A stretch of DNA of 64,000 nucleotides from NCBI GenBank assembly GCA_018651345.1, contig JABIEF010000073.1, positions 62,001 to 126,000 of the forward strand, read 5' to 3'. A program made the translations under genes and the position numbers. Positions 6,672 through 11,203 of the stretch are shown here, piece after piece (positions within the stretch are counted from its first letter, which is position 1; each line of letters begins with the position of its first letter). The notes below the pieces were generated by a model, which saw nothing but the letters and a program-made list of their open reading frames with translations, was not told the origin of the DNA and searched no databases. This DNA comes from Rhodobiaceae bacterium. Its GTDB lineage: Bacteria; Pseudomonadota; Alphaproteobacteria; Rhizobiales; TMED25.

Positions 6672-7481
6672 TTATTTAACTATAATATAATTTGATTTTG
6701 ATAAATCAATAGTTGCTCCATTTCTTAACACATATTCAGCTTGTTTTGTATAAGAACCATCATTGTCGTGTAAAATTAATGGTGGCAATAATTTTAACTC
6801 AGATCTACTGCCTTTTTTTGCTTGAACAATTACCCTTGAGGCGTTAGATGTGATTTTTGGCATTATTGGTAGAATATTTATTTCGCCAAAAGATTTATTT
6901 AGTGCAATTAACAGCTCATCCAAAGCAGACATCCTGTTAATTATTGTAATTGTACCTTTTTCGACCAAAATTTTAGAAAGTTTATGGATCCAAATTGTAG
7001 AAGTGCCTTTGGACGAAACTTTAGCTATTTGATTTTTATAATTAGATGGCAATTGTACTCTACCACTTTCATAATACGGCGGGTTCATTAATACATGATC
7101 GAATGGAAAAGGGAGGTTTAATTTTTTAATTGATTTAGAGCTTAAATCTGAAATATCCATTTTTACAAAATTTGATATCTTTTCTAAATTATTAAATTTT
7201 GAATTATAGTTAGCATAAGAAATATTCATTTCATCCAAATCGATACCACAAATATTTATATTAGAAACTCTTGTCGCCACAGCTAAAGCGGCCGCCCCGT
7301 TGCCGGTTCCTGCATCCAAAATATTATCACTTTTCTTTGCAGGTACCGCGGCAGCTAGTAACATGGTATCAGAAGTAACTCTCGCACCTTCAGTTGATTG
7401 TTTTAGAAGTAATCGCCCACCTAAAAATTCATCCGTAGAGTGTGTTGCCTTTATATTTATTCCTTTATTCATAAAATCCAA
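6672..7481 (-). CDS. tRNA1(Val) adenine-N6 methyltransferase-like SAM-dependent methyltransferase
   Basis: DAGTGNGAAALAVATRV SAM motif; HVLMNPPYYESG (NPPY motif) as in TrmN6/YfiC family. Confidence 0.8.
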   Translation of the reverse strand: MDFMNKGINIKATHSTDEFLGGRLLLKQSTEGARVTSDTMLLAAAVPAKKSDNILDAGTGNGAAALAVATRVSNINICGIDLDEMNISYANYNSKFNNLEKISNFVKMDISDLSSKSIKKLNLPFPFDHVLMNPPYYESGRVQLPSNYKNQIAKVSSKGTSTIWIHKLSKILVEKGTITIINRMSALDELLIALNKSFGEINILPIMPKITSNASRVIVQAKKGSRSELKLLPPLILHDNDGSYTKQAEYVLRNGATIDLSKSNYIIVK

Positions 7482-8621: not shown

Positions 8622-9491
8622 TCAAAATAAATTAACCTTGCGGCACCAATATTCAGGACAAGCATGGACAATGCAATCATATGCCTTGTCCAAATACTTT
8701 CGATCTTCATATAACCCAAAACAAGTGGCGCCACTTCCAGACATCCGTGAAACTATACATTTATCTGTTTTTTGAATTGCCAGCAATATTCTATCTATTT
8801 CAGGATCTAAAGAACAAGCAATATCTTGTAAATCATTCTTACCGTTGACAATAAATTCTAATAAGTCTTTCTTACTATTTGGGATAACTGTATTATTTCT
8901 ATCCGCATCTATTAAATTATTTGATTTCATCATTGAAAAAACTTTTTTAGTAGACATTTCTTTATTTGGATTAACCAATAAAGCAGAAAATTTGATATCA
9001 TTATTCAATGGCTGTATCTTTTCACCCGTACCATGCAGAAATAATAGCTTTGAAAATAAACAAGCGTTAACGTCCGATCCAATAGAATATGGAATACCAG
9101 ATTCTTTGATTTCGCTAACTCGATTATTATTAATACTACATAAACCTCTAAATATTGCAGCTGCGTCAGCAGATCCACCGCCTAAACCAGCTGCAATTGG
9201 TATATTTTTATCTAATTTATATAGATAAAAATTCGAACTAGGATAAAGACTTCTATATCCACAATCACTTTTAATAATAAGATTATCTAAGGTAGAAATA
9301 ATACCCTTAACATTACTCTTTATAAGAAGCTCAGTTTTTTGGTTTCTATAAAAATCTATTGAATCGTACAAATCAGTAAATGCAACTATACTGTTAATAT
9401 TATGAAGGCCGTTTAAACCTTTATCAAAAACATTTAAAGTTAGATTTATCTTAGCAAATGCTTTTTCTGTATGTATGATTTTATTGTTAAT
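8622..9491 (-). CDS. ispE: 4-diphosphocytidyl-2-C-methyl-D-erythritol kinase; probable non-canonical ATT start
   Basis: The ORF track begins at an internal TTG (9371). In-frame sequence upstream encodes ...IIHTEKAFAKINLTLNVFDKGLNGLHNINSIVAFTDLYDS, the conserved IspE N-terminus; IPIAAGLGGGSADAAA GHMP motif follows. The frame is open back to TAG at 9498-9500. Confidence 0.88.
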   Translation of the reverse strand: MNNKIIHTEKAFAKINLTLNVFDKGLNGLHNINSIVAFTDLYDSIDFYRNQKTELLIKSNVKGIISTLDNLIIKSDCGYRSLYPSSNFYLYKLDKNIPIAAGLGGGSADAAAIFRGLCSINNNRVSEIKESGIPYSIGSDVNACLFSKLLFLHGTGEKIQPLNNDIKFSALLVNPNKEMSTKKVFSMMKSNNLIDADRNNTVIPNSKKDLLEFIVNGKNDLQDIACSLDPEIDRILLAIQKTDKCIVSRMSGSGATCFGLYEDRKYLDKAYDCIVHACPEYWCRKVNLF

Positions 9492-9541
9492 TTTATTCTA
9501 ATTCCTTGATTTTTAAAGATTATCTAATTCTTAATTATAAA

Positions 9542-11203
9542 TTACATATTAGAATAATTTGGTCCCCCACCACCCTCTGGAGCTACCCAGGTAATATTTT
9601 GGTTTGGATCTTTGATGTCGCAGGTCTTACAGTGAACGCAATTTTGGCTATTGATTTGTAATATTTTATTATCTTGTTCACCAATCCATTCGTAGACGCC
9701 TGCAGGACAATAATTACCAGACGGTCCTCCATATATTTGGAACTCACTATTAATTTGGATATCCATATTATTAACTTGGAGATGAACAGGTTGATCTTCT
9801 TCGTGATTAGTTGCCGATAAGAATACTGAAGACAGTTTGTCAAAGGAGTATTCTCCATCTGGTTTTGGATAAACTATTCTATTTCTATCATTGGCAATTT
9901 CCAATGTTTCATGATCAGCTTTTCTATGAGACATTGTAATGGGAAGACTAATACCAAAATTTCTTAACCACATGTCAATCGCACCTAAGCTTATGCCAAG
10001 ATGTGTCCCGAAACGTGACCATAATGGCTTAACATTTTTTACTATATTTAACTCTTTTTTTACATCACTGCAGTCGTATTTATTCTGATAATCAATAACT
10101 TCATCATTAGACCTATTATTAATAATAGCATCAAATATAGATTCAGCAGCCATAACGCCTGTTAATATAGCGTTGTGTGAACCTTTAATCCTTGGTACAT
10201 TAACAAATCCAGCCGAGCAACCAACCAAGACTCCACCAGGAAAGGTAAGCTTAGGCACAGATTGATAGCCGCCTTCATTAATTGCCCTAGCTCCATATGA
10301 AATTCTCTTCCCCCCTTTTAAAATCTCTTTTATCATTGGGTGAGTTTTAAAACGCTGAAACTCTTCGTATGGAGATAGATGAGGGTTAGTATAATTTAAA
10401 TGAACAACAAAACCTATTGATACTAAATTCTTATCGAACTGATATAGAAAAGATCCGCCACCAGTTTTCTTATCCAAAGGCCAACCCATCGTATGTTGTA
10501 CGAGACCAGGTGTGTGATTTTCTTTTGGGATTTCCCATAATTCCTTTAAACCGAGACCATATTTTTGCGTATCACTCTCTCTATCGAGACTGTATTTTCC
10601 TATTATTTCTTTAGACAACTGACCTCTAACGCCTTCTGCAAATACTGTATATTTTGCAAAAATTTCCATACCCCTCATATAAGTTTCTTTTTTAGATTGG
10701 TCTTTGGCAATTCCTAAGTCACCTGTTGCAACCCCAATCACGGAACCTTCCGAATTATATAAAATTTCATTTGCTGGGAAACCAGGGTAAATTTCAATAC
10801 CCATAGATTCCGCTATATTTCCAAGCCATTTAGTTAAATTTGACAAACTGGTAACATAACACCCGTCATTTGACATTATTGGAGGCATAAGTAAATTTGG
10901 AATTCTTATACCACCTGCCGGACCAAGAAAATAAAATTTATCAGTGACCACTTCATCCATTATAGGATGATCTAAGTCTCTCCAGTTAGGTAACAAAGAA
11001 TCTAAACCCACTGGATCAATAACTGCTCCAGATAAAATATGCGCACCTACCTCAGATCCTTTTTCTAAAATAGTAATCGATATTTCTTTACCAGCTTCTT
11101 CCGCTTGTTGTTTTAATTTAATAGCCGTGGCAAGACCTGCGGGGCCAGCGCCTACTACGACTACATCTATATCTATTGATTCACGATTTTCAATTTCTAT
11201 CAT
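9542..11203 (-). CDS. Electron transfer flavoprotein-ubiquinone oxidoreductase
   Basis: 553 aa; FAD motif VVVGAGPAGLATAIKL; C-terminal 4Fe-4S CVHCKTCDIKDPNQNITWVAPEGGGGPNY. Confidence 0.96.
   Translation of the reverse strand: MIEIENRESIDIDVVVVGAGPAGLATAIKLKQQAEEAGKEISITILEKGSEVGAHILSGAVIDPVGLDSLLPNWRDLDHPIMDEVVTDKFYFLGPAGGIRIPNLLMPPIMSNDGCYVTSLSNLTKWLGNIAESMGIEIYPGFPANEILYNSEGSVIGVATGDLGIAKDQSKKETYMRGMEIFAKYTVFAEGVRGQLSKEIIGKYSLDRESDTQKYGLGLKELWEIPKENHTPGLVQHTMGWPLDKKTGGGSFLYQFDKNLVSIGFVVHLNYTNPHLSPYEEFQRFKTHPMIKEILKGGKRISYGARAINEGGYQSVPKLTFPGGVLVGCSAGFVNVPRIKGSHNAILTGVMAAESIFDAIINNRSNDEVIDYQNKYDCSDVKKELNIVKNVKPLWSRFGTHLGISLGAIDMWLRNFGISLPITMSHRKADHETLEIANDRNRIVYPKPDGEYSFDKLSSVFLSATNHEEDQPVHLQVNNMDIQINSEFQIYGGPSGNYCPAGVYEWIGEQDNKILQINSQNCVHCKTCDIKDPNQNITWVAPEGGGGPNYSNM

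Follow-up and report, generated by a model that had tools for sequence, protein, structure and literature searches.

The ispE gene of this bacterium, which is probably marine, offers no canonical start codon ahead of its conserved N-terminal sequence, and we consider it very likely that translation begins at one of the near-cognate codons AUU, AUC or AUA (collectively AUH). The best single candidate, as the initial annotation had proposed, is the ATT at 9491-9489 on the minus strand of the window (the whole stretch of 64,000 nucleotides analysed here). This codon is probably the one used, as it lies at a workable distance from a Shine-Dalgarno (SD)-like word and is kept in two species, and truncation of the protein is excluded. 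The coding sequence proposed from this ATT (8622-9491, minus strand) specifies 289 residues of an enzyme required for isoprenoid synthesis, which we take to be 4-diphosphocytidyl-2-C-methyl-D-erythritol kinase (CDP-ME kinase, a GHMP kinase).

Reading the window sequence bore out the local layout described in the initial annotation. The upstream ETF-QO gene (9542-11203) lies on the same strand as ispE and ends 50 nt before the ATT, and the interval from its stop codon (9544-9542) to an in-frame TAG (9500-9498) contains no ATG, GTG or TTG in any of the frames. The TAG closes the ispE frame two codons before the ATT, and the frame then continues AAT AAA ATT AAC AAT AAA ATC ATA CAT ACA GAA AAA GCA TTT GCT AAG ATA AAT CTA. 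The last five of these codons (9455-9441) encode the conserved AKINL motif, in which AAG 9452-9450 specifies a Lys matching, in alignments, the one conserved in solved IspE enzymes; upstream of the motif the frame holds no ATG, GTG, TTG or CTG. A search of the ispE leader for a structured element found none, the leader being A/U-rich and unstructured (folding z +0.9).

Several observations indicate that the start must precede the AKINL motif. The form beginning at the ATT scores 235.7 bits on NCBIfam NF011202 and passes its cut-off of 204, whereas that beginning at the internal TTG picked by the ORF caller (9371-9369) falls below it (191.6 bits). The general model TIGR00154, which shares its product name with the equivalog model NF011202, gave 127.6, under its cut-off of 138.7. 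Alignments by phmmer to solved IspE structures also begin at the AKINL motif, and both the N-terminal AK(I/L)NL motif and the glycine-rich GLGGGSADAA motif are present. Comparison within the genus was limited to two species, i.e. that of the window's genome and a sister represented by the sole other genome of the genus in the collection (G001; a separate MAG, contig CAJIYR010000008.1), whose IspE is 90% identical in amino acid sequence. Differences between the two genes in the body of ispE number 14, 13 and 37 at codon positions 1, 2 and 3, respectively, and only 3 of 67 fall in the first 120 nt; this bias to third positions, with so few differences at the 5' end, indicates that the N-terminus is kept.

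An internal start, at TTG 9371 or later, would give a shortened protein for which no peptide covering AFAKINLTLNVF would be expected; this possibility, or that of a decaying pseudogene, seems to us scarcely credible. Whilst the TTG is the choice of ORF callers, the sister has TTA in its place and no canonical codon before codon 118 of 291, so that an internal start would be unable to make the enzyme; the initial annotation had pointed out that a start at this TTG loses AKINL. Against a pseudogene, both the motif and the reading frame over its full length are conserved, the differences being biased as above; each of the two genomes contains a single ispE match, and both also carry dxr, a gene of the same pathway. 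An intact, functional ispE would therefore be the best explanation of these data. Separately, a methyltransferase-like ORF elsewhere in the window (6672-7481, minus strand) was called from a TTG, and an ATG three codons on (MNKGINIK) may be its true start.

The start region of ispE in the sister reads TAG AAA AAA ATT CAC AAT AAA ATT ATA CAT ACA, and thus retains both the in-frame TAG and the ATT, with no canonical start. This bears on the possibility that a true ATG, or an indel restoring one, was missed through sequencing or assembly error. The sister genome was assembled from a metagenome, and that of the window is split into 79 contigs; nevertheless, the layout is common to two separately assembled species that differ at 7 sites across 9372-9544, and other genes and genomes show the same startless state. 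To judge from these comparisons, error is already refuted by the sister genome, and we give it next to no weight. That the non-canonical state is kept in both species of the genus (2/2) points to a genuine replacement of the start codon. In the neighbouring genus, by contrast, all 12 ispE genes have an ATG start that precedes the Ala of the motif by 10 codons, from which we infer that the start codon most likely disappeared in the lineage leading to the present genus. The initial annotation had named a canonical start in relatives as grounds for refutation; such a start is present in the neighbouring genus, but not in the sister, with its ATT. A further apparent case, the ispE of genome G161, which seemed startless within 22 codons, was discarded on finding a GTG farther upstream.

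To choose among the candidate codons, we used as a reference the 461 genes of the sister genome whose ATG start agrees with that in G003. SD-like words (at least 4 matching bases) precede 60% of these ATG starts, compared with 19% in shuffles, and some 40% of ATG genes in this genome have no clear SD. In the 57 ATG genes led by AAGGA the distance to the ATG is 5-15 nt, with a peak at 7-9 nt; spacings of 11 and 12 nt occur in 2 and 4 of the 57, respectively, and none of the 461 confident starts is preceded by AAGGA at 16-24 nt (24 nt being the largest distance counted). The AAGGA upstream of ispE (9507-9503, the same in the sister) is exactly 11 nt from the ATT, as against about 11 nt in the initial annotation, a spacing that is workable but at the long edge of the range for this lineage. 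The spacing of AAGGA in the lineage accordingly favours ATT 9491.

The start could alternatively be non-canonical but lie farther downstream, at ATC 9479-9477 (ATT in the sister) or ATA 9476-9474, without help from the SD. The ATC remains an ATH codon in the sister and, on the assumption that two codons have been lost, can be aligned to the neighbouring-genus ATG (AAT AAA ATC ATA compared with AAT AAA ATG ATT); starts lacking an SD are, moreover, common in the lineage, as noted above. The AAGGA would, however, then be 23 nt (ATC) or 26 nt (ATA) away, the former a distance found before none of the confident starts, and in an ungapped alignment the ATC does not fall on the neighbouring-genus ATG. 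No candidate, the ATT included, is exactly homologous to that ATG, the ATT lying 12 codons and the ATC 8 codons before the motif's Ala rather than 10. On balance we consider a start at the ATC or ATA unlikely.

For the preferred AUU start, a mechanism can be outlined. The ATG of ispE would have been lost in this genus and replaced by a near-cognate AUH codon, most likely the AUU at 9491-9489. The AAGGA, together with a leader that is A/U-rich and unstructured, would position the 30S subunit at this codon, and AUU would then be read, with a mismatch at its third position, by the normal initiator tRNA with its CAU anticodon. The product would be a 289-residue IspE beginning with fMet ((f)M-N-N-K-I-I). 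Initiation from such a codon is expected to be weak. The exact start codon, the incorporation of fMet, the low efficiency and any sensitivity to IF3 are what we infer from the arrangement described above.

The clearest case of start codon replacement in the family is provided by the cobalamin adenosyltransferase gene. In the 8 family genomes read, the start position is occupied by ATC in 7 and by ATA in 1 (G007), in each instance followed by GTN (loci: contig C8, 211495, in the sister; contig C57, ~24434, in the window's genome). An in-frame stop lies a few codons upstream, and in G005 just one codon stands between it and the ATC. The corresponding site is NTG in all 56 matching genomes from other families of the order, and in this order-wide pattern comparison the four sampled members of the family, and no other genomes, have NTC there. 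With a stricter pattern, nine genomes of the class have ATG (8) or GTG (1), and the ATH form was found only in the window's genome among 385. On the strength of these comparisons the adenosyltransferase is a case of positional replacement of the start codon that has been kept across the family, which makes the AUU reading of ispE more believable.

To see how many conserved genes are in the same position, we compared G001 with G003 (1051 reciprocal non-overlapping pairs) and selected those in which homology reaches upstream of the first ATG, GTG or TTG. The unfiltered survey was dominated by antisense frames, and overlapping frames were therefore removed. Approximately 11 of the 1051 conserved G001 genes, ispE included, lack a canonical start ahead of the conserved N-terminus. 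The others are infC (with ATA), the cobalamin adenosyltransferase (ATC), a carboxylesterase and a nudix hydrolase, the last three confirmed by Pfam (the carboxylesterase as an esterase), together with genes labelled by sequence reading only as an M20-type peptidase, an MFS-type transporter, FemAB-like, KpsF-like and NDUFA9-like proteins and an integral membrane protein. In 10 of the 11 an in-frame ATT, ATC or ATA is found 5-11 nt after an SD-like word; when the 11 genes are taken together, 13 of 31 ATH codons occupy such a position, compared with 15 of 125 codons of other kinds (Fisher p 3.5e-4, an approximate value, since neighbouring codons are not independent and the upstream limits were set by eye).

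For the carboxylesterase and the nudix hydrolase a canonical start is missing in both species of the genus, with an ATT behind an SD-like word; the nudix gene of the window's genome is on contig C30 at ~56.3 kb, just outside the window. Among the 110 genes on the window contig that have a G003 homologue, only ispE and one nudix gene show an N-terminal gap, a third flagged frame being antisense-like and so rejected. Also set aside was prfB (G001, contig C5, plus strand, 80873, and its G003 counterpart), whose startless main frame we put down to what is presumably its usual programmed frameshift. As a separate observation, a G003 gene labelled uvrA by sequence reading only lacks a canonical start ahead of the conserved N-terminus, the first being at codon 76, and ATC or ATA is likely to serve there.

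The initial annotation had regarded the ispE start as an isolated oddity comparable to that of infC. The start does appear to be non-canonical, but it is not isolated, as infC and about nine other genes of the lineage are alike in this respect. A related possibility is that AUU was selected so that the level of IF3 tunes IspE, as in infC, which is compatible with AUU initiation itself. AUU starts in E. coli are IF3-sensitive; consistent with a device of this kind, infC in the lineage starts with ATA and ispE is unusually well conserved at its 5' end. Unrelated genes nevertheless have the same kind of start with no shared pathway evident, so that relaxed or drifting start codons fit better than regulation gene by gene, and we regard selection for IF3 control of ispE as rather improbable. 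From the genes compared, a broader tolerance of AUH in the family would fit the evidence better than special infC-like control of ispE.

The initiation machinery was inspected with such tolerance in mind. The infC gene starts with ATA throughout the family, and in this genus does so behind (A)AGGAGG. IF3 itself was checked for a loss that might explain relaxed starts, and nothing stands out in a near full-length alignment to solved IF3 (8jsg). In both G001 and G003 the anticodon stem of the initiator tRNA-Met(cat) reads TCAGG/CCTGA, so that, of the three conserved G-C pairs, the first (29-41) is replaced by A-U. Variants of this kind in the anticodon stem of the initiator tRNA occur in some other bacteria, and that seen here is possibly connected with the relaxed starts. 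Tentatively, and with a little less than even confidence, we suggest that this AT-rich family of small genomes has relaxed start discrimination, such that AUU, AUC and AUA form a standing minor class of starts in ~1% of conserved genes, some of them fixed in the family (e.g. the AUC of the adenosyltransferase), possibly in connection with the initiator tRNA.

These considerations have consequences for annotation, as gene callers that accept only ATG, GTG and TTG truncate or lose such genes; in the present case AKINL is removed from an enzyme of the MEP isoprenoid pathway. Should the lineage carry many AUH starts, comparative surveys of start codons that are based on annotation would undercount them, and the lineage would offer a natural test of drift in the fidelity of initiation (IF3, initiator tRNA). 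The family-wide AUC of the adenosyltransferase is a clean case for experiment.

A literature search for an AUU start in ispE or an AUC start in cobalamin adenosyltransferase found nothing relevant, but starts of this type are known in other genes. AUU is an established start in E. coli for both infC and pcnB (PMC13009471); Binns & Masters 2002, listed among the references of that paper, describes pcnB in its title as the second chromosomal example of AUU in this species. As with these two, AUU would be the sole start of ispE and weak initiation is expected; ispE differs in being another gene, and in that several such genes occur here in one genome. In S. aureus, starts located by ribosome profiling include AUA in infC, ccpN and citZ and AUU in cvfC1, of which those of infC, cvfC1 and ccpN were mapped in the cell; reporters for cvfC1, ccpN and citZ gave ~10% of AUG, and that for ccpN up to 30% in rich medium (PMC13009471). 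The putative ispE start resembles this set in combining AUU with SD support. In contrast to infC, cvfC1 and ccpN, with their extended SDs and mapped starts, it is a predicted start behind a modest AAGGA at a long distance. A survey of start codon switches in 36 genome triplets found 1 AUU among 61,358 ancestral AUG codons (PMC5622118). Like those switches, the change in ispE would replace AUG with another codon between close relatives; unlike that survey, which was annotation-based and in which such starts are rarely proposed, ~1% of conserved genes here look non-canonical. We hold with moderate confidence that this proportion is unusual for one lineage, the figure coming from the G001-G003 pair. 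The AUU of ispE is thus a further instance of an established phenomenon, whereas the number of cases within one family is new.
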